Source: Nitrospirae bacterium MYbinv3
Lineage (GTDB): Bacteria; Nitrospirota; Thermodesulfovibrionia; Thermodesulfovibrionales; Magnetobacteriaceae
NCBI GenBank assembly: GCA_002753395.1
Contig: PEAB01000016.1
Coordinates: 1-53,150 of the forward strand
Direction: 5' to 3'
DNA length: 53,150 nt
The first letter of the stretch is position 1. Each line of letters begins with the position of its first letter. The notes beneath the pieces are model-generated. The model saw only the letters and a list, made by a program, of their open reading frames with translations. It was not told the DNA's origin and searched no databases. A program made the position numbers and the translations under genes. Below are positions 10,098-42,686 of this stretch, piece after piece.

Positions 10098-11081
10098 ATG
10101 CTTAAACAAATCAAGTCAATCGATCTAAAGCCCAGTATGTATGTTATATGTACGGCATCGTGGTCTAATCATCCTTTTTTAAAAAACAGATTTTTAATCG
10201 AAAATGAAAATGATATAACTACGATCATTAAATCAGGTATAAGAGAGATTACTATAGACACATCTAAAGGGGTGCCTGTTACAATTGCTGAGAGTGTGAG
10301 CCACGGGGATAAAGAGATTAAACCACCAGCGCGATGGGAGCCTGAACGCCTGGTTACAGACGAATTAAAAGAGGCGGTAAGGGACGATAAACTCCCGCCA
10401 GAGAAAAAGGCCAGGATCGTTTATGACTCTGCAACTGTTATAATGGCTAAACTGTTTGACGATCCAAAGGCTAAGAATATCAGCGCTGCAAAGGAAGGGA
10501 TATATGATATTGTCGACCTTATAATCTCCGACGATAAGACTTCCCTGAATCTGCTTCAGATTACAAGCCATGATTTTTACACATATACACATTCCGTAAA
10601 CGTAGGGCTGTTGTCGATAATGTTATCAAAAGCGCTATTTAAAGGCTCGGACGCCCATGACATGCACGAGCTTGGCGCTGGTTTTTTCCTCCATGACATT
10701 GGAAAGGTAAAGGTACCTCCAGAGATTATAAACAAGCCTGGCCGACTCACAGAAGAAGAAATGATGAAGATGCGGATACATCCTTATCAGGGTTATAAAA
10801 TACTTACCGAGACAAACCAGCTCACACAGGAGTGTAAGTACATCGTCTTACAGCACCACGAAAGGGCAAATGGCACCGGCTATCCTAGTCGTCTCACAGG
10901 CGATGACATCCATGTCTACGGCCGCATAGGCTGTATAGCTGATGTTTATGATGCCCTAACCGCTGAGCGCTCCTATAAACCTTCAATGCCCCCTTTTGAC
11001 GCGCTTAAGCTAATGAAGGAACAGATGATTGACCACTTCCACAAGGAACTGTTTGATAAGTTTGTACTTTTGTTTTCTTAG
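10098..11081 (+). CDS. HD-GYP domain cyclic-di-GMP phosphodiesterase
   Basis: A 327-residue protein. The first 120 residues match the DUF3391-type region often found before HD-GYP domains (IKSIDLKPSMYVICT, DTSKGVPV). The HD-GYP domain shows FLHDIGKVKVPPEIINKPG with the metal-binding His-Asp at 199-200, HPYQGYKIL, QHHERANGTGYP near residue 260 and CIADVYDALTAERSYKP, so all catalytic positions appear intact. Such enzymes hydrolyse cyclic-di-GMP in the cytoplasm and lower its signal. AGGAGG lies 6 bases before the ATG, a strong ribosome site. It stands alone between the methyltransferase and the pyr operon. Confidence 0.92.
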   Translation: MLKQIKSIDLKPSMYVICTASWSNHPFLKNRFLIENENDITTIIKSGIREITIDTSKGVPVTIAESVSHGDKEIKPPARWEPERLVTDELKEAVRDDKLPPEKKARIVYDSATVIMAKLFDDPKAKNISAAKEGIYDIVDLIISDDKTSLNLLQITSHDFYTYTHSVNVGLLSIMLSKALFKGSDAHDMHELGAGFFLHDIGKVKVPPEIINKPGRLTEEEMMKMRIHPYQGYKILTETNQLTQECKYIVLQHHERANGTGYPSRLTGDDIHVYGRIGCIADVYDALTAERSYKPSMPPFDALKLMKEQMIDHFHKELFDKFVLLFS

Positions 11082-32563: not shown

Positions 32564-33244
32564 ATGACATTTGAAGATGTAATGATGGGCTTTGAAGCAA
32601 TAAGAAATGATTTTGAAGCAATAAGAAATGATTTTGAAGCAATGAGAAAGGATAGTGAAACTCGAATAAAAGAGTCTCAAGAAAGGAGAAAAGAACTTAA
32701 AGATGTAATGATGGGCTTTGAGACGATGAGGAAGGATACTGAAACTCGTATCAAAGAATCTGAAAAGACAGCAAAAGAACTCAAAAAGGTAGTTGCTGGT
32801 CTCTGTGAAACACGGAAAACCGTGGAGGCCCTAACCGGCAAGTGGGGCAACTTTGTGGTAGGGTTAGTCTTACCGGCAACAAAGAAAATGTTTAGAGAAA
32901 AGGGTATTGTTCTAAAGAATATTTTTAAAGGCGCTGAAAGCTACGAAGATGACGCTAAAATGGAAATAGATATACTGGCTGTTAATGGTGATTATGTAGT
33001 AGCCATAGAGGTTAAGAGTACATTAGGGATAGACGATGTAAATGATCACCTGACTCGACTGTCCAAGTTTAAACAAGCCTTCCCGACATACGCTAATCGG
33101 ACTGTAATAGGCGCTGTAGCAGGTATTGTCATAAATGAAGGCGTTGATAGGTATGCTTATCAGAAAGGCCTCTTTGTTATCGGCCAGAGCGGCGATACGG
33201 TCAAGATACTAAACGACGAGAAGTTTACGCCTCGGTGCTTTTAA
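32564..33244 (+). CDS. Coiled-coil PD-(D/E)XK nuclease-fold protein (DUF3782-like), copy 1
   Basis: 226 residues. Residues 1-80 are a charged coiled coil built from repeats of NDFEAIR/KDSETRIKES. After KWGNFVVGLVLPATKKMF comes a nuclease-like core: EIDILAVNGDYVVAIEVKST gives the D...ExK active-site pattern. Such proteins are abundant in cyanobacteria and Nitrospirota, and their DNA targets and roles are unknown. AAGGAGGCAGCGCT precedes ATG. A tandem copy starts 57 bases after the stop with a similar upstream region, so gene and leader were duplicated together. Confidence 0.85.
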   Translation: MTFEDVMMGFEAIRNDFEAIRNDFEAMRKDSETRIKESQERRKELKDVMMGFETMRKDTETRIKESEKTAKELKKVVAGLCETRKTVEALTGKWGNFVVGLVLPATKKMFREKGIVLKNIFKGAESYEDDAKMEIDILAVNGDYVVAIEVKSTLGIDDVNDHLTRLSKFKQAFPTYANRTVIGAVAGIVINEGVDRYAYQKGLFVIGQSGDTVKILNDEKFTPRCF

Positions 33245-33301: not shown

Positions 33302-33919
33302 ATGACATTTGAAGATGTAATGATGGGCTTTGAAGCAATAAGAAATGATTTTGAAGCAATAAGAGATGATTTTGAAGCAATGAGAAAGGATAGTGAAACT
33401 CGAATAAAAGAGTCTCAAGAAAGGGGAAAAGAACTAAACAAAGTAGGTAAAGAACTCAAAGATGTAGTTGCTGGTCTTAAACAAACAAAAGACACTGTAG
33501 ATGCACTAACTGGCAAGTGGGGCAACTTTGTGGTAGGGTTAGTATTACCGGCAACGCAAAAGATGTTTATGGAAAAAGGAATCGAGGTGGAGACTATCTC
33601 TCGAAGTGTACAGAGTAAGGTAAAGGACGCTGAAATGGAGATTGATATACTGGCAGTTAATGGTGAGTATGTCGTAGCAATAGAGGTTAAGAGTACATTA
33701 GGGGTAGATGATGTAAATGACCACTTGGAAAGGTTAGCCAAGTTTAAGCAGGCGTTTAAGATATACGCTGACAGGATTGTTATAGGCGCTGTAGCAGGCA
33801 TCGTTATAGAAGAAGGGGTTGACAGATACGCTTACAAGAAAGGCCTGTTTGTTATCGGCCAGAGCGGCGATACGGTCAATATACTAAACGACGAGAAGTT
33901 TACGCCTCGGCGCTTTTAA
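33302..33919 (+). CDS. Coiled-coil PD-(D/E)XK nuclease-fold protein (DUF3782-like), copy 2
   Basis: 205 residues, tandem paralogue of the gene at 32564. The first 39 residues are almost identical; the coiled coil is then shorter by a repeat block, and the nuclease core has diverged more (MEIDILAVNGEYVVAIEVKS keeps the D and ExK residues). AAAGGAGATAACGCT before ATG mirrors the leader of copy 1. Near-identity at the start with divergence later hints at gene conversion or a recent duplication with selection on the core. Confidence 0.85.
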   Translation: MTFEDVMMGFEAIRNDFEAIRDDFEAMRKDSETRIKESQERGKELNKVGKELKDVVAGLKQTKDTVDALTGKWGNFVVGLVLPATQKMFMEKGIEVETISRSVQSKVKDAEMEIDILAVNGEYVVAIEVKSTLGVDDVNDHLERLAKFKQAFKIYADRIVIGAVAGIVIEEGVDRYAYKKGLFVIGQSGDTVNILNDEKFTPRRF

Positions 33920-34019: not shown

Positions 34020-34192
34020 CTACACTTTTGCACTTTTTTATAAACCAGCGTTTTATGCAGCTCTTGAAAATAGATTCCCGCTTTCGCGGGAATGACAGCA
34101 AATAGCGTTTTTGGGTGTTCTATGTCGTTCCTGCGTAAGCAGGAATCCAGAAAGCTTAAAAACATAATTACCATGAAATATGAAGAAGATAC
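34020..34192. mobile_element. Composite mini-element with an R4 left end and R3 right end
   Basis: Begins with the R4 end (TACACTTTTGCACTTTTT), contains the same ATTCCCGCTTTCGCGGGAAT and ATTCCTGCGTAAGCAGGAAT hairpins as 15159-15306, but finishes with the R3 end (minus strand GTATCTTCTTCATATTTCAT). A recombinant of two families. Confidence 0.6.
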
Positions 34193-34260: not shown

Positions 34261-34839
34261 TTACACCTCTTGTTTGATATAATTCTCATCCATTTGCAGT
34301 AGAAAAAACGATGACAATAGTATTGCTACAGCGCTTGTGGTGAAAAGCATAGAGTAGCCGTAATACTTTACGACAATGCTTCCGACAACCAGTCCAACGG
34401 CAGAGGCACAGGTTAGAAAAAAGTTATATGTGCCAACCGCCTGCCCCCTGCTTTTCCTTATAGGTAGAAGGTCACTTAGGAGGGCTACTCTAATGGTTGT
34501 TAAGATACCACCTACCATACCTAAAACAAACTGTAGGGCATAAAAGTGTACAGTAGTGGTAGCATGAGGGTAAAAAACAAATATTACCGCTTGTAATACG
34601 CCTGCGGCTATAAGAAACGGCTTTCTTGTCCCTCCAAATAGCCTGTCCGATATGTAACCGGAGAAGAACGTCGTCAAGGCCTGAGATACCATCATTATAG
34701 CCATCGCAATACCCATTTCAACAAATCCCTTACTTGCAAGAAGAACCGTAATGTAGGGACCTACTATTCCCGTTACAACAGCAAAGACACTGCTATTTGC
34801 TGTAAACATCCTCATGTTTTTTTTCATTACGTCGTTCAT
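34261..34839 (-). CDS. Half-size MFS-type transporter, probable peptide exporter or truncated
   Basis: 192 residues with about six membrane helices, matching only the N-terminal half of a major facilitator. FFSGYISDRLFGGTRKPFL is the MFS loop 2-3 motif (G-x-x-SDR-x-G-x-R). The stop lies where the central cytoplasmic loop would be, and only repeats follow, so the C-terminal half may have been lost; alternatively the short form may work as a dimer. The ATG overlaps the end of the radical SAM gene by 4 bases, so the two are translated together, which suggests export or handling of the modified peptide. Confidence 0.75.
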   Translation of the reverse strand: MNDVMKKNMRMFTANSSVFAVVTGIVGPYITVLLASKGFVEMGIAMAIMMVSQALTTFFSGYISDRLFGGTRKPFLIAAGVLQAVIFVFYPHATTTVHFYALQFVLGMVGGILTTIRVALLSDLLPIRKSRGQAVGTYNFFLTCASAVGLVVGSIVVKYYGYSMLFTTSAVAILLSSFFLLQMDENYIKQEV

Positions 34840-36134
34840 TGCACGTCGTATTCTATGTCTTGCTTGATTAAAGTCCCAAAGGCCTTTTGAAAAAAAGGTA
34901 ATCGACAGTCTACCTTGTCCATATTCTTATGCTGCAGATATGACACGTAACGGCAGCCCCCCCTGCAGAGAGGTAAATACTTACATTCATCACGACACTT
35001 TGGTGTGTTCTGTAAAAGATCGAGATTATAGATCTCGCTAAAATCTTTTACGCCTGTAAATACATCACCTATCTTGTACTGTTCTACACCAACCATACCA
35101 GGGCATTTGTACAACGAACCATCAACGTCAATCGTAAAAAAATTCTTATGCTCTACAGCACATAGGAAAGGATAAATAAATGGCTTTGCCTTTATGTTTC
35201 TCTGGAGTTTATTTTGTCTTAGAAAGGGTAAGGCTTCAGCAATCCATGACATACCAGATGATGCGCAGCCAACACCGCAGCCAGTGTCTAAAACTGGTGC
35301 AAATCTAACGAGTGATAACTTATCTGCTATGGAGAGACTACAGAAGAGATCTAATAAAGGTATAAAGGCGCTTTTGTAATTTTCTTGCGTGTATAGACAG
35401 TTAATCCCTATCTTTAGTATATTATTATCTAGTGCATAACAGATATTATATATAATGTCCTCGAAACTGCTTTTTCCGGATTTTCGAGGTCTGGACTTGT
35501 TATGGTTTTCTTTAATCCCGTCTATCGTAATGACTGCCCCCGTAACTCCTAAGTCCCTTAGAGACTCTGATATCTCCGGTGTCATCAACGAACCATTGGT
35601 CGTTATAGAAAAAGCAACTTTTAGGTTGTCTGATATAGACTTAATCTTTCTTGTGAGACTGTCAATTACGTGAAATGCTACTAACGGTTCACCGCCAAAA
35701 ATCACAACCTTGAGCGATTCAACTTGCTGATCTTCTTTATTGTTTAGCATGTATTCACGTGTGAACCTGGTGATGCCATCAATCACCTCCTCTGTCATAG
35801 TACCAGATGTCTTTATGTCATTTTGTATGCAGTGTGGACAAGCGAAATTACAATTCCGTGTTATGATAACCTGCAAAACTGCTTCCTTGTAGAACTGGCT
35901 CGGATAATCAAGAACTTCACTCTTTTCTTGCTCTGTATCTTTTACAAGGAACCCCTCCTGTCGCAAGATTTCTTTATCTTCATCCTTGAATAACTCCAGA
36001 CCATTTTCAACTTGTATTATTGTTCCATACCGCGTAGAACAGAGGTAGGTGCAACCATAATCCTCTATTTTATCTTCAATGGTTACAACAAATCTTGAAA
36101 GTTCTTCACTGCTCTTGCTTTTATTATTCTGCAT
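34836..36134 (-). CDS. Radical SAM/SPASM peptide-modifying enzyme
   Basis: 432 residues. Residues 1-75 look like the N-terminal peptide-recognition-type region of SPASM maturases. The radical SAM cluster is CNFACPHC (Cys 95, 99, 102), followed by VVIFGGEPLVAF and ITIDGIKENHNKSR. The C-terminal SPASM region has CPGMVG and a run CRDECKYLPLCRGGC with a later Cys, enough for auxiliary iron-sulfur clusters. Enzymes of this type form thioether or carbon crosslinks in ribosomally made peptides. A 32-codon Cys-Cys peptide frame with a strong ribosome site lies 124 bases upstream, and a half MFS gene overlaps downstream. Confidence 0.9.
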   Translation of the reverse strand: MQNNKSKSSEELSRFVVTIEDKIEDYGCTYLCSTRYGTIIQVENGLELFKDEDKEILRQEGFLVKDTEQEKSEVLDYPSQFYKEAVLQVIITRNCNFACPHCIQNDIKTSGTMTEEVIDGITRFTREYMLNNKEDQQVESLKVVIFGGEPLVAFHVIDSLTRKIKSISDNLKVAFSITTNGSLMTPEISESLRDLGVTGAVITIDGIKENHNKSRPRKSGKSSFEDIIYNICYALDNNILKIGINCLYTQENYKSAFIPLLDLFCSLSIADKLSLVRFAPVLDTGCGVGCASSGMSWIAEALPFLRQNKLQRNIKAKPFIYPFLCAVEHKNFFTIDVDGSLYKCPGMVGVEQYKIGDVFTGVKDFSEIYNLDLLQNTPKCRDECKYLPLCRGGCRYVSYLQHKNMDKVDCRLPFFQKAFGTLIKQDIEYDVQ

Positions 36135-36159
36135 TTTTTATTATTATCCTCGTATAAAA

Positions 36160-36192
36160 CAAAAAAGAGCAGAGATCGAAACCCCTGCTCTT
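36160..36192 (-). terminator. Rho-independent terminator or attenuator between peptide and maturase genes
   Basis: On the minus strand AAGAGCAG pairs with CTGCTCTT around a 12-base loop and is followed by TTTTGTTTT. It lies after the peptide frame and before the radical SAM start, so it would favour peptide over enzyme expression by partial read-through. A further palindrome ACTCTTAAGAGT is at 36195-36206. Confidence 0.7.
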
Positions 36193-36257
36193 CCACTCTT
36201 AAGAGTAGCGTACTTTGCTTAAAATACAAACATTCGATTCCGTGATTAAAAACTATA

Positions 36258-36356
36258 TTAGATTAGTATTGTTACAAGCATGTCTACGCAACATCCAGGG
36301 CCATCCGTGTCCTTGGTCTTTCCCTTTATTACCTTCACTGCTAATTCTTTCTTCAA
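36258..36356 (-). CDS. Candidate RiPP precursor peptide with Cys-Cys core
   Basis: A 32-residue frame with TTG start at 36356, four bases after the consensus ribosome site AAGGAGG (36367-36361). The N-terminal half is lysine-rich and leader-like (KKELAVKVIKGKTK); the C-terminal half is DGPGCCVDMLVTILI, with two adjacent Cys, a nearby Asp and a hydrophobic end. Placement before a radical SAM/SPASM gene, with a terminator between, is the usual layout of precursor and maturase. It is too short for routine gene calling. A 20-codon frame ends on the overlapping TGA (36353-36355) and could be a leader joined by frameshift or be separate. The peptide family is not one I recognise. Confidence 0.55.
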   Translation of the reverse strand: MKKELAVKVIKGKTKDTDGPGCCVDMLVTILI

Positions 36357-36415
36357 TATTCCTCCTTACTAGCGGCCAATTTCAAGGCCATTCGTTTAAA
36401 TAATTCTTCTGTCAC
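36353..36415 (-). CDS. Upstream 20-codon frame overlapping the candidate precursor
   Basis: GTG at 36415 opens TEELFKRMALKLAASKEEY and stops at TGA 36353-36355, overlapping the TTG start of the next frame. Its helix-forming character continues smoothly into KKELAVKV of the next frame, so a single precursor broken by a one-base shift, a programmed -1 shift, or simple translational coupling are all possible. No strong ribosome site precedes the GTG. Confidence 0.3.
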   Translation of the reverse strand: MTEELFKRMALKLAASKEEY

Positions 36416-36493
36416 TCTAACTACGTAGAGTTTTTATGTCATGTGTTTATGTTTGCTTTTTTATTGCGCCTGCTCTGCTTGCTACTGCACTTG

Positions 36494-36527
36494 TTTTGAT
36501 TTTATAGCATGTATTTAAGAAATGCAA
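36494..36527 (-). promoter_or_regulatory. Extended -10 promoter of the peptide/maturase transcript
   Basis: On the minus strand TGCTATAAA (TATAAA at 36506-36501, TG one base ahead) with a TTGCAT -35-like box 15 bases upstream. It gives a leader of about 125 bases before the ribosome site, with a small ACTCTA/TAGAGT hairpin. Confidence 0.45.
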
Positions 36528-36530
36528 GTG

Positions 36531-36830: not shown

Positions 36831-36892
36831 ATGGGGTCAAGGGGACTGGTCCCCTTGCGGAGAGGTCTGAGGGGAGGCAGAGCCTCCCCTTC
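36831..36892 (+). repeat. R1 double-hairpin repeat, short form
   Basis: AAGGGGACTGGTCCCCTT then GGGGAGGCAGAGCCTCCCC followed by TTCTT; nearly identical to the copy at 9124. Confidence 0.75.
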
Positions 36893-36958: not shown

Positions 36959-37930
36959 ATGAGTCACAATCCTGACGCAAAGGGTAGAGTGCAGAGAAAG
37001 CAGACGCTAATAAGCTGCTTCATTTTCTTGGCGCTTCTCATATACCAAGCGGTTGACGTGGAGGCTTTTGACGTAGTGATTGTGGAAGGGGCAGGTTTTA
37101 CGATCTACGAGGATGTCATAGAAGGGTTTAAGAGAGCATGTGACTGTAATGTCAAAAAAGTCATAGTCCTGGATAACGGCTTAAAGGACATAAGACAAGA
37201 GATACAAAAAGAGCAGCCTGACATGATCTTAACTATTGGACAGGAGGCCCTGACAAAGACCAGGGAGCAGACGAATCTCCCAATCACATACTTGATGGTG
37301 CTAAACCCTGAGCCTCTGATAGAGGGGCGTGATGATATAAGCGGAGTCAGCATGTCTATATCGCCGGAGAAAAAGCTCAATGCTTTTTTAGATATCTTCC
37401 CGACCACTAGAGAGATAGGCGTCCTCTATAACCCAGATGAATCAGAGAGCTACGTAAGACGCGCCAGATATGCAGCCCAGACAAGGGGAGTTGGCCTTGT
37501 TGAGCATCCGTTAAGGGATCCAAAGGACGTTATCAACGTCCTGGATACCATGAAGGACAAGATAGACGCCTTATGGGTAATGCCAAGCAAAACCCTGTCG
37601 GATATAGAGACGATGGAAATCATCTCCTTCTTTTCGATGAACAATAGGGTACCGGTCTTGTCATATACGGATTGGCACTTGAAAATAGGGGCGGCTGTCG
37701 TATTAAACGTAGACCCTTACGAGATGGGTGTGCAGGGTGCTCAGGTAGCGCGGACAAATCACAAAGGGTTGTCAGCGCGCAGCAAAGACATCCGTAACAG
37801 CTCCGTCAGCGATGTCAGATACGCCAGGGTGTCTATTAACCAGGGTGTTATCAAAAAGATGGAAATCGCCATAAATGAAAAGTACAGGAATAAGGCAAGC
37901 ACTAGAATATACCTTATAGGCAGGAGGTAA
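36959..37930 (+). CDS. ABC-type substrate-binding protein (PF04392-like)
   Basis: 323 residues with an N-terminal membrane or signal helix (about 15-36) after a short charged stretch. The body matches the periplasmic binding proteins related to tryptophan-type ABC systems (MILTIGQEALTKTREQTNLP, LVLNPEP-like VLNPEPLIEG, IGVLYNPDESES). No permease or ATPase gene follows. Instead a hybrid kinase starts 4 bases after the stop, so it most likely presents a ligand to that kinase and not to a transporter. Its C terminus is basic. ATG at 36959 has no strong ribosome site. Confidence 0.82.
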   Translation: MSHNPDAKGRVQRKQTLISCFIFLALLIYQAVDVEAFDVVIVEGAGFTIYEDVIEGFKRACDCNVKKVIVLDNGLKDIRQEIQKEQPDMILTIGQEALTKTREQTNLPITYLMVLNPEPLIEGRDDISGVSMSISPEKKLNAFLDIFPTTREIGVLYNPDESESYVRRARYAAQTRGVGLVEHPLRDPKDVINVLDTMKDKIDALWVMPSKTLSDIETMEIISFFSMNNRVPVLSYTDWHLKIGAAVVLNVDPYEMGVQGAQVARTNHKGLSARSKDIRNSSVSDVRYARVSINQGVIKKMEIAINEKYRNKASTRIYLIGRR

Positions 37931-37934
37931 AGAC

Positions 37935-39962
37935 ATGAAGAGGTTTAGTTTAATAAGGGCATACGAGAAGAACTTCTCTGTAAAGATATTATCGATAACA
38001 GCGCTTTCTATATTTGTAATATCGGTAGTCTTTACTGTCTTCAGCATACATAGTGAGACCTTGCTGCTACGGGGCAAACTAATCAGTCAGGGGTATGTGC
38101 TTACAAAGCTCCTGGTCAACAACTCCAGGCTTGGGGTTTTTACAGAAAACGATCTGGTACTTCAAAACGCAGTCTCAGGCGTCAAGAGCCAGGAAGAGGT
38201 TGTCTTTGTCTCAATATTCGATAGGTACAAAAAATCACTGATTCAGATGAAAAGCGCTTCTTTTATGATACCAGAAGAAGAAACAAGAGATTTAAACGAA
38301 CGGTTGTCTTCTCCAAAAGATCCTAACACGGTGACGTTCTCAGAACACGACGAGTATTTTAACTTTGTAGCGCCGATCGTTTCAGCCACTGGCGTGTTGG
38401 CAGATCAATACTACGCTCAAAACACCTTTAGCTCGCCTGAGAAACGAGGCCAAGTGCTTGGCTATGTGATAATAGCATTGGGCAAGGAAGGTCTTAAAAA
38501 GCAGATCATGTCATTGGCAATAAAAAACTCAGCAATTGCGATAGTCTTACAGGTTTTTGGCCTCGTAATAGCCTTTTTTATCACACAACAGATCCTCATC
38601 CCGATCAGACGGCTCACCAAAAGCGTTCGTGAGTTTGAAGAAATGGAGAGAGCATCTAAGATACCTGTCAACTCCAAGGACGAAATAGGCGAGGTTGTCA
38701 TCGCGTTTAACGATATGGTAGAGACGCTTGAAAATCGGGAGGCCGAAAGAAAAAACCTTGAAGTAGATAGGCAACGCCTCGAAGAAGAGAGAGAAAGGCT
38801 TATGGAAAAGCTGCTCGATGCAAAGAAAATGGAAGACATGAATATCTTTACAGGCGGTATAGCCCATGACATAAATAACATTATGATGGCCTTGCTGGCA
38901 AACATGGAGCTTATAAAAACCTACATGCCACACAATCCCAAGGCGATGACTAGGTTCAAGGATATGCAAAGGGCGGTACGTCAGGCAAAAGAACTCTCAA
39001 CGAGGTTCCTTATGTTTTCAAAGGTTGGAGAACCTGTTAAACAACTGACCTCCATAACGAACTTACTTAAGGACACTGCCGACTTCTTCCTGGTTGGTAC
39101 AAACGTAACATGCAGAATATCCAGCTCAGACGACCTTCCTGCATGTGAAATAGACAGGGGACAGATACTTCAGGTCATTAACAATCTTGTTGTAAATGCA
39201 AAAGACGCTATGCCAGATGGAGGGGAAATAGATATTCATCTTGAAGACATACACGTTGAGACACCTAACCAGATGCATCTGGACGACGGCAGATACGTGT
39301 TAGTCTCCGTCGCTGACCAAGGCTGCGGTATACCAACGGATAAGCTAAAGAGGATATTTGAGCCATTTTATACCACAAAGAAAACTGGCAACGGCCTAGG
39401 ACTTGCATCTTCCCTTGCAATTATGAGGGCGCACAACGGTAGCATTGAGGTAGAATCCACAAATGGTGCAGGCACAGTCTTTCGCCTTTATCTGCCAGCC
39501 TCAGACAAGGCCTGCCCGATAGAGGTTGAAGAGACACAAGAGTGTGCGGTTGAAGATGTAACCCCCAGAATCCTGTTTATGGACGACAACGAGGATATCA
39601 GACTTACTTTCAAGGAGCTTCTGACCACTTACGGCTGTGACATAGTATTAGCAGCCGATGGACAAGAGGCAATTGAGCTGTTCGTTAAACGCAAGGAGTC
39701 CGGTTATAACTTTGATGTTATCATAATGGATCTTACGATTCAAGGTGGTATGGGAGGTAAGGAGACTATAAAAGAGATCCACAAGATAGATAGCAGCGTT
39801 AAAGCCATAGCCATGACCGGATATGCACACGAAACTATAATGTCAGATAGCGAGATACACGGTTTCGTAGGTGTCTTTACAAAGCCATTTTTGATAGATG
39901 AACTGTACAACGCAATCTTGACGATAAAAAAGCAAAACCTCAAAAGAGTGCACGCCACATAA
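37935..39962 (+). CDS. Hybrid sensor histidine kinase with receiver domain
   Basis: 675 residues: membrane helix (about 17-40), periplasmic sensor region, second helix (about 190-215), HAMP domain (RRLTKSVREFEEMERASK), coiled coil, H box GGIAHDINNIMMALLANMEL with His 311, HATPase domain with NNLVVNAKDAMPDGG, DQGCGIP and GNGLGLASSLA, and a C-terminal receiver domain (ILFMDDNEDIRL, IIMDLTIQGG with phospho-Asp near 599, TKPF Lys). The kinase may pass phosphate to its own receiver and on to an unlinked Hpt protein. It pairs with the binding protein encoded just upstream. AGGAGG precedes ATG. Confidence 0.9.
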   Translation: MKRFSLIRAYEKNFSVKILSITALSIFVISVVFTVFSIHSETLLLRGKLISQGYVLTKLLVNNSRLGVFTENDLVLQNAVSGVKSQEEVVFVSIFDRYKKSLIQMKSASFMIPEEETRDLNERLSSPKDPNTVTFSEHDEYFNFVAPIVSATGVLADQYYAQNTFSSPEKRGQVLGYVIIALGKEGLKKQIMSLAIKNSAIAIVLQVFGLVIAFFITQQILIPIRRLTKSVREFEEMERASKIPVNSKDEIGEVVIAFNDMVETLENREAERKNLEVDRQRLEEERERLMEKLLDAKKMEDMNIFTGGIAHDINNIMMALLANMELIKTYMPHNPKAMTRFKDMQRAVRQAKELSTRFLMFSKVGEPVKQLTSITNLLKDTADFFLVGTNVTCRISSSDDLPACEIDRGQILQVINNLVVNAKDAMPDGGEIDIHLEDIHVETPNQMHLDDGRYVLVSVADQGCGIPTDKLKRIFEPFYTTKKTGNGLGLASSLAIMRAHNGSIEVESTNGAGTVFRLYLPASDKACPIEVEETQECAVEDVTPRILFMDDNEDIRLTFKELLTTYGCDIVLAADGQEAIELFVKRKESGYNFDVIIMDLTIQGGMGGKETIKEIHKIDSSVKAIAMTGYAHETIMSDSEIHGFVGVFTKPFLIDELYNAILTIKKQNLKRVHAT

Positions 39963-40202: not shown

Positions 40203-42686
40203 TTGTTAGGAAAGATGAAGAACAAACATGATCTATCAGTAAAGAGCACACCTGGTGACAAACATGTACAACCTTATGTATGGGAGATGCTCACAAGATA
40301 TCTAAAACCACAGATGAGGTATTCGCTGTGGGTGTTTTGCGCTGTGCTTGTGGTCTGTTTAAGCCTCTCAGCCTATGCACGATACCATCAGTACCACCAA
40401 TGGCAGAAGAGTCCAGATATGTACTTCGTCGACGGAAAACCCATGATGACAACGATGGACGCCTTTTTGTGGCTGCGTTACGCAAGACTATACAAGACTG
40501 GATCTTACGATGATAGCCCAGACACCTTGAGGTATTACCCTGAGGGTTACACTAAGCCAGCTTTTGTCCTCCTTAGCTATCTGACCGCTAAACTCTCCGT
40601 ATTCTTTGATAGCATAGATAAAACCGGTACCCTTTTGATACCAATCTTTGCAAGCCTATTTATAATCCCTCTCTTCATCTATTTTCGTGAGATAGGTTAT
40701 CCAACTGCTGCCGTTGTTGGTAGTCTCGTTGGGAGCTTCAACCACATATACATGGTAAGAACCGCTATAGGACGAGTAGATACGGATAGTCTCAACCTTT
40801 TTTTTCTAATCTTGGTGTCTTACTTTATCCTGCGTGTGTGTAAGAGCAGCACGGAGCGTGACCTCTACTTGTACACAGCCCTGGCTGGTATCTCTATGCT
40901 TGTCTTTCACACATGGTATCACATAACTATGCTTTCAGAGTTCTACCTGTTTGTCCTGATTGTCAGTCTCAGTATCAACAGGTTCCCGTGGAGGAAGATT
41001 GTAAAGGCCAGTGTGATCTTCCTGATCTTCTCCGCTGATGATGACGTTATGAGGGGCGCACGGCAGTTGTTGTCCGAGATATCAAACAAGGCCCCAAGCC
41101 CCTGCAGCACATACTCACCAGCGCTGTTTATAGGCACATTGTATCTTACTGAAATCTTTAAGAACATCCAGTTTAACGCTTTGCCTCTTATTGATTATCT
41201 TTTAGCCTACACCGAGAAGACCTTTAAGTTCTCATTGTCAAGCGCTAACTCTGTTTTTACTCTAATGTATTTGATAAGCATGTTTTTTATGTACAAGACC
41301 AGCTTTAACATCTCATTTACCCTTATCTGTCTGATGCTTCTTGTCTCTTGTCTCTACTTTGAGACGCATGATAGCTCAATATTGTTTAAGATAGCAGCTA
41401 TAACCATGTTTGTCTTCTCACTGCCAGCAGCCTTTTATGTTGCCAAATACACAGCAGCGAGTTTCTATGATACGTACCTGATACGTTTAGCCAGTGAGGC
41501 TCAGTATAACGTAAAGGCAGGTCTTATGATTAACCAAAGTATCTTTTCAACAATCGAGGAGATGCAAAAGACACCTGTCAATGTGCTGTTGTCGCTTATC
41601 TTTAATAACCCCATTTTTAGCGTAATCGGGCTTTTCTTTTTTGTCATCTTTAGCATTTATCACATAAGGATGTTGATACCGCTACTTCCCATGATTATAT
41701 TAGGCTTTTTGACCTTTAAAGGCTCAAACAGATACGTAATGAATCTGGCTCCTCTTGTTGGCATAGGATACGGATACCTGATAACAATGATAGTCAAGCC
41801 GATCTTGGATTCAATAAAGACTAAGGATATCTTTAAGGAGTTGGTGGTCTATGTCTTTTCATTTCTATTTTTTCTCTCAGTGTTGAATCAGACGGGTTAT
41901 GCCTACGTGCCGCAGCCATCGGTACCCGCTGACGTATTTAGATCGTTATCTCAGCTTAAGGGATATTTACCTAAAGACTCGGCTATACTGACATGGTGGG
42001 ACTTGGGTTATGCTGTCATGGATTTGACAGATGCTGCCACGTTTCATGACGGCGGCAGCCAAAATACCAGCAGGACAAACTTTATCGCCCGTGGCCTGAC
42101 CTCCAAAAGCCCTTACGAAATGTACAACATAGCCAGTATGCTTAGTAACCCAAACTCCAAGGTCTCTGGAGGGATCATTAACAAGGACATGGGCATTGAT
42201 AAGATACTTGACGATGTCAAGCAGGACAACATCTACCTGATGTACACACATGACTTAATCACAAAGTTTCAAGCAATATATCATCTAAGAGGCGCTGTCC
42301 CAGATAAGTATGCCGGCCAAACCAAACCATTATTAGTTCCAATGGCATGTCAATCCTTTGTTGATAGTATATTGTCTTGCAGCGGCGACACGTTTGACTT
42401 AAACAAAGGTGTCATAAATAATTCTGAGAAACTTGCAAAAACCGTCTTTATAGAAAAGGGCAAGGTAACTAAAGAATACAACTATGAAAACACCTCGGAG
42501 ATATTTTTAGAGTTGTTTGTTGAAAATGGCAAGGTATATGAGATCTACCTGATGAAGGACGTTTTCTTCAACTCAAACCTCAATCAGATGTACGTATTAG
42601 GCAATTACGACAGCGCCATATACGAGGAGACGTTCAACGCATTCCCATCCCTAAGGGTTTTCAAACTAAAGCACCACCCTAACTAA
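40203..42686 (+). CDS. STT3/PglB-type oligosaccharyltransferase
   Basis: 827 residues. About the first 550 are a multi-helix GT-C domain with FVDGKPMMTTMDAFLWLRYA (first acidic loop) and GRVDTDSLNLFF (the second acidic, metal-binding loop). The periplasmic domain carries the signature TWWDLGYAVMDLT, WWDLG at 598-602 replacing the WWDYG of archaeal and Campylobacter enzymes, which binds the acceptor sequon. The enzyme moves a lipid-linked glycan onto Asn of exported proteins. No glycan-assembly genes are adjacent. Start is TTG at 40203 or ATG at 40215; the latter has AGGA close by. Confidence 0.9.
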   Translation: MLGKMKNKHDLSVKSTPGDKHVQPYVWEMLTRYLKPQMRYSLWVFCAVLVVCLSLSAYARYHQYHQWQKSPDMYFVDGKPMMTTMDAFLWLRYARLYKTGSYDDSPDTLRYYPEGYTKPAFVLLSYLTAKLSVFFDSIDKTGTLLIPIFASLFIIPLFIYFREIGYPTAAVVGSLVGSFNHIYMVRTAIGRVDTDSLNLFFLILVSYFILRVCKSSTERDLYLYTALAGISMLVFHTWYHITMLSEFYLFVLIVSLSINRFPWRKIVKASVIFLIFSADDDVMRGARQLLSEISNKAPSPCSTYSPALFIGTLYLTEIFKNIQFNALPLIDYLLAYTEKTFKFSLSSANSVFTLMYLISMFFMYKTSFNISFTLICLMLLVSCLYFETHDSSILFKIAAITMFVFSLPAAFYVAKYTAASFYDTYLIRLASEAQYNVKAGLMINQSIFSTIEEMQKTPVNVLLSLIFNNPIFSVIGLFFFVIFSIYHIRMLIPLLPMIILGFLTFKGSNRYVMNLAPLVGIGYGYLITMIVKPILDSIKTKDIFKELVVYVFSFLFFLSVLNQTGYAYVPQPSVPADVFRSLSQLKGYLPKDSAILTWWDLGYAVMDLTDAATFHDGGSQNTSRTNFIARGLTSKSPYEMYNIASMLSNPNSKVSGGIINKDMGIDKILDDVKQDNIYLMYTHDLITKFQAIYHLRGAVPDKYAGQTKPLLVPMACQSFVDSILSCSGDTFDLNKGVINNSEKLAKTVFIEKGKVTKEYNYENTSEIFLELFVENGKVYEIYLMKDVFFNSNLNQMYVLGNYDSAIYEETFNAFPSLRVFKLKHHPN

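Follow-up and report, generated by a model that had tools for sequence, protein, structure and literature searches.

The window analysed here, a 53,150-nucleotide stretch of contig PEAB01000016.1 from Nitrospirae bacterium MYbinv3, carries on its reverse strand a short open reading frame, a radical SAM/SPASM enzyme, and a half-size MFS protein, and on its forward strand a TonB-dependent receptor, a periplasmic protein of family PF04392, and a hybrid sensor histidine kinase (Table 1). The original prediction, made from the sequence alone, had described a 32-codon frame with an AAGGAGG ribosome site and a GPGCCVD core, a CX3CX2C/SPASM protein, and an overlapping six-helix MFS gene, and all of these parts were located as claimed.

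Table 1. Features of the RiPP locus and its neighbours, with positions counted from the first nucleotide of the window.
Feature	Position	Strand	Remarks
TonB-dependent receptor, 631 aa	29655..31550	+	PF07715 and PF00593 (plug and barrel)
Half-size MFS protein, 192 aa	34261..34839	-	six predicted helices; PF07690 E 3e-20
Radical SAM/SPASM maturase, 432 aa	34836..36134	-	CteB-alignable N-terminal region, CX3CX2C, seven SPASM Cys
Terminator-like hairpin	36163..36194	-	14 pairs, then TTGTTTTA; between precursor and maturase
Precursor peptide, 32 aa	36258..36356	-	TTG start; MKKELAVKVIKGKTKDTDGPGCCVDMLVTILI; Cys-Cys, then 9-residue tail
Ribosome site AAGGAGG	36361..36367	-	4 nt ahead of the precursor's TTG
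Periplasmic ABC_sub_bind (PF04392) protein	36959..37930	+	signal-peptide-like start; no adjoining permease
Hybrid sensor histidine kinase	37935..39962	+	sCache_4-HAMP-HisKA-HATPase-receiver

The maturase matches PF04055 (E 1.2e-14), and its invariant Cys residues comprise those of the CX3CX2C motif (C95, C99, and C102) and seven in the SPASM region (C325, C344, C380, C384, C390, C394, and C410). By far its best family is TIGR04280, the maturase model of the geopeptide system, at 292.7 bits (E 4.9e-87) and thus under the cut-off of 400; the homologue at locus L006 likewise scores below the cut-off (261), and those at L067, L073, L127, and L010 pass it with 560–651 bits. A quick maximum-likelihood tree joined the window and L006 enzymes as a sister pair (support 98) inside a clade of 31 (support 99), where the pair is sister to the other 29 members, the TIGR04280-passing enzymes included; maturases of Omnitrophota and Auribacterota that are accompanied by CC peptides (i.e., peptides with adjacent Cys residues) fall outside this clade. 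Searching plasmids for the maturase returned distant radical SAM relatives only, every one at <60% identity. An AlphaFold2 model (pLDDT 88.6) found its best solved match in CteB (5why; Z 27.9, rmsd 4.2 over 370 residues, model residues 13–428), with ChlB and anaerobic sulfatase maturases following within 1 Z unit, and a fold that the predicted model shares with CteB would not in itself establish the reaction. Three strands and a helix modelled before residue 60, in a region that aligns with CteB from residue 13 onwards, form a candidate for a leader-binding (RRE-like) domain. At L066 (5019-7097, + strand) the maturase frame extends approximately 260 residues beyond its usual end; this extension looks helical, contains YIDDFIDH, and is without a Pfam match, and a half-size MFS frame comes next.

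Homologues of the maturase were collected from the same order, where 28 of 149 genomes had a match at 1e-20, and from named genomes, giving 42 loci that are partly non-independent (L026/L027 and L074/L075, for example, are near relatives). Each was searched on the coding strand, up to 600 nt upstream of the maturase, for a frame of 20–80 residues with a ribosome site and a Cys-Cys near the C-terminus. The original prediction had named two points on which it could fail, namely the lack of a conserved short frame at this position and the loss of its Cys-Cys. Examined in the homologous loci, the claim of a RiPP precursor with a radical SAM/SPASM maturase survived, being conserved over many genomes with the Cys-Cys retained: such a frame was present in 37 of the 42 loci, compared with 3.4% of dinucleotide shuffles, one of 42 on the opposite strand, and two of 40 downstream. 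Three further CC peptides lay beyond the search region, one cut by a contig end (L012) and two farther away (L058 and L076). Since these frames had been selected for their Cys-Cys, a test that made no use of it was devised, in which an 8-residue weight matrix for the leader (IxVLDxG) was trained without the tested locus; it excluded seven loci whose leader is Lys/Ala-rich or truncated. With this matrix, the CC peptide took the top rank in 27 of 32 loci, over a background of 3.4%, and the window and its sister L006, both with diverged leaders, were among the five failures. No CC peptide was seen near the maturase at L009/L049 (genome G069, on a short contig) or L025/L064 (genome G012), and a 32-row profile of the peptides gave no clear match in either genome.

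Across 39 peptides, the Cys-Cys is invariant and lies approximately nine residues from the end, the tails that follow it (7–15 residues, mostly 7–10) differ in sequence between loci, and the one other well-conserved part is the stretch of leader surrounding its glycine. The Cys-Cys region is probably what the radical SAM enzyme modifies. The original prediction had placed the modification site at the Cys pair and a nearby Asp; as a cross-link partner this residue was rejected, an Asp being found within four residues after the Cys-Cys in only four of the 39 peptides. One maturase family is served by two types of leader, IxVLDxG and Lys/Ala-rich: in L007, L011, L013, L014, L017, and L021, a long Lys/Ala-rich, histone-H1-like leader replaces the IxVLDxG type, with the CC core and its position unchanged. 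At L033, a single maturase is preceded by two similar CC precursors in tandem.

The window's own peptide is encoded on the maturase strand, 123 nt ahead of that gene, and TTG, a rare start codon, stands close behind its ribosome site. It ranks only third among 750 frames in the leave-one-out leader matrix because its leader, AVKVIKGK, has diverged from the family's IxVLDxG; TIGR04229, the geopeptide precursor model, gave no match to it, and the 32-row profile did not find it at E <= 1. Given the diverged leader and the profile miss, its identification therefore rests mainly on its position, the ribosome site, the Cys-Cys nine residues from the end, and the hairpin downstream. A separate 20-codon frame on the reverse strand (36353-36415) terminates across the start of the precursor frame.

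Three features of these loci are new here: a hairpin in the precursor–maturase gap, the half-size MFS protein, and the company of a TonB receptor, a PF04392 protein, and often a histidine kinase. The last of these, although shared by almost all relatives, was absent from the original prediction. Of 38 loci, 24 have a terminator-like hairpin in the gap, among them the window, compared with 0.35% of shuffles. A hairpin between peptide and enzyme genes is a usual means of making more of the former than of the latter; the hairpin in this gap would raise peptide over enzyme, and the one in the window is a probable attenuator. Two G+C-rich palindromic hairpins in other intergenic gaps of the window (34074-34093 and 36869-36891) resemble dispersed repeat elements.

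The half-size MFS gene begins inside the end of the maturase gene, with a 4-nt overlap between start and stop. At 1e-12, eight of 149 genomes have a homologue, in each case directly downstream of the maturase, and the copies read are 185–192 residues long. The simplest reading of so fixed an arrangement would be a dedicated transporter half, which probably serves as the exporter half for the product. As this protein is found only in a minority of the loci, export elsewhere must differ.

Clustering of the genes flanking 24 loci recovered the TonB-dependent receptor in 20, the PF04392 protein in 20, and the kinase/regulator cluster in 18, some loci also having a sigma-54-type response regulator after the kinase. 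With the named loci added, the receptor was found in 31 of 35 and the PF04392 protein in 32 of 35; the loci that lack them mostly lie at contig ends, and G012 is a true exception. Within the order, all 25 maturase-bearing genomes possess the receptor, compared with 12 of the 124 others (Fisher 1e-19, kinship ignored), and it shares a contig with 26 of 31 maturase copies. Such near-constant receptor and sensor neighbours suggest that the product is secreted and then either re-imported or sensed. Among solved structures, the receptor comes closest to BtuB, FepA, and CirA, and its sequence therefore does not reveal the cargo. A B12 reading of the receptor was tried and rejected, a riboswitch or other known RNA beside it having been sought in seven sources and none found. 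In two genomes where no maturase was found, CC peptides adjoin a TonB receptor near contig ends (L146, - strand, near 162; L147, - strand, near 10336).

Taken together, these observations lead us to favour, with some confidence, the reading that the RiPP locus in the window belongs to a sister lineage of the predicted geopeptides and that its product is exported and then re-imported or sensed. The hairpin would leave the peptide in excess over the maturase, whose N-terminal domain would hold the precursor's leader; modification of the Cys-Cys region would fall to its radical SAM and SPASM clusters, and the likeliest change is a cross-link, such as a thioether, that involves one Cys or both. 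The modified peptide would then leave the cell, in the window via the half-size MFS protein; the TonB receptor would serve to recover or capture it, and the periplasmic PF04392 protein and the kinase would report its presence. As to what the product might be, our leading guess, offered tentatively, is a thiol-based metallophore that would follow methanobactin-like logic with other chemistry. Also tentative is the extension to the whole group, namely that geopeptides and the window's sister lineage may be radical-SAM-made Cys-Cys metallophores (or diffusible signals) with TonB-dependent re-uptake, a periplasmic-protein/kinase sensor and, in part of the family, a half-size MFS exporter, occurring in Nitrospirota, Desulfobacterota, and phyla further removed.

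The receptor, PF04392 protein, and kinase might instead form an independent nutrient sensor whose regulator controls, or repeatedly neighbours, the peptide operon, with an intracellular, cofactor-like product after the logic of PQQ or mycofactocin. Triads of receptor, PF04392 protein, and kinase do exist with neither maturase nor CC peptide (L153, L156, L160, and L161), as either receptor-only genomes or an independent module. In the receptor tree, maturase-linked copies are clustered (seven changes vs. 16.1 in shuffles), yet they do not form a single clade, and the window's receptor is placed among mostly unlinked ones. An invariant Cys-Cys, with little else kept apart from the leader, is also what would be expected if a small CC-derived product were cut out. 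The receptor, however, recurs at 31 of 35 loci across several phyla, and no maturase-bearing genome of the order lacks it; this, together with the dedicated half-size MFS protein in eight genomes, speaks against the alternative, which we regard as somewhat unlikely.

A special case of export and re-import, unlikely in our estimation, is that the modified peptide is itself a signal, which would re-enter by the TonB receptor, bind to the PF04392 protein, and be detected by the kinase. The invariant Cys-Cys and the TonB machinery would equally fit a carried cargo, no response target came to light, and a scan for sigma-54 promoters upstream of the precursors gave 11 of 39 vs. 14% in shuffles, at no consistent site. 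What speaks for a signal is that the periplasmic protein and kinase adjoin each other without an ABC permease, that the tails differ from locus to locus in the manner of specificity regions, and that receptor-only genomes could be listeners. That the window's small frame arose by chance, the real precursor lying elsewhere or being lost, is highly improbable: its TTG start, diverged leader, and lack of a match to either precursor model, as well as the 3.4% of shuffles that yield a CC frame, would allow it, but the frame lies on the correct strand, 123 nt ahead of the maturase, and has an AAGGAGG site, nine residues behind its Cys-Cys and, like the frames of its relatives, a hairpin downstream.

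Returning to the favoured reading of an exported and re-imported or sensed RiPP, the closest known system is that of the geopeptides (TIGR04229/TIGR04280), in which, as in the window, a homologous radical SAM/SPASM enzyme of the same clade is closely preceded, on its own strand, by a short CC peptide. The window differs in the sub-threshold score of its maturase, the lack of a TIGR04229 match, its diverged leader, and the attached half-size MFS protein, and because it falls short of both the TIGR04280 and TIGR04229 cut-offs, it is not filed as a geopeptide member. On this evidence, it is a relative of the geopeptides that would work as they do. The description of the locus as an undescribed RiPP holds only in part: same-clade maturases pass TIGR04280 and the precursor of Geotalea passes TIGR04229 (40.5, cut-off 30), so that the window is a diverged offshoot of a system already predicted. 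A literature search confined largely to openly accessible papers turned up nothing on geopeptides, nor on radical SAM RiPPs accompanied by TonB receptors.

Other systems are further removed. CteB, the SCIFF maturase with the best-matching solved fold, shares the order of N-terminal region, radical SAM domain, and SPASM domain, but the window maturase scores 87.7 bits against the TIGR03974 cut-off of 425, and SCIFF precursors are six-Cys peptides, whereas that of the window has a lone Cys-Cys. PapB is also a radical SAM/SPASM enzyme with a Cys substrate and cross-links Cys to Asp or Glu (PMC9413430). The window maturase differs from this ranthipeptide enzyme in scoring 126.3 bits against the NF047865 cut-off of 340, and no acidic partner is conserved near the Cys-Cys, an Asp or Glu standing within four residues after it in four of 39 peptides. 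Methanobactin is not known to come from a radical SAM enzyme, and its operons are similar in logic only, combining a ribosomal Cys peptide with TonB-dependent re-uptake. There, a ribosomal peptide product is served by a TonB receptor (PMC3621798; PMC9601215), and PqqU (YncD) is the TonB importer of PQQ (PMC12124388). PQQ is itself a radical SAM RiPP product. The PqqU structure 9c4o is among the weaker matches of the window receptor, to which BtuB and FepA are closer, and the window precursor is unlike PqqA. Likened to the present locus by logic and not by kinship, these two cases illustrate that a TonB receptor can serve a product made from a ribosomal peptide.

The geopeptide and its maturase have been named by NCBI models, and the neighbourhood of receptor, PF04392 protein, and kinase hints at a purpose for such peptides that can be tested. 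If these peptides proved to be radical SAM metallophores or TonB-imported signals, the known roles of RiPPs in anaerobic, metal-cycling bacteria would be extended.

Between the receptor and the MFS gene, the window also carries two similar neighbouring genes (32564-33244 and 33302-33919, both + strand) with coiled N-termini and a weak match to NERD (nuclease-related), and downstream of the kinase it encodes an STT3/PglB-type oligosaccharyl transferase-like protein (40203-42686, + strand). A second pair of PF04392 protein and kinase, accompanied by neither receptor nor maturase, is located on another contig of the same genome (L165, contig C93).
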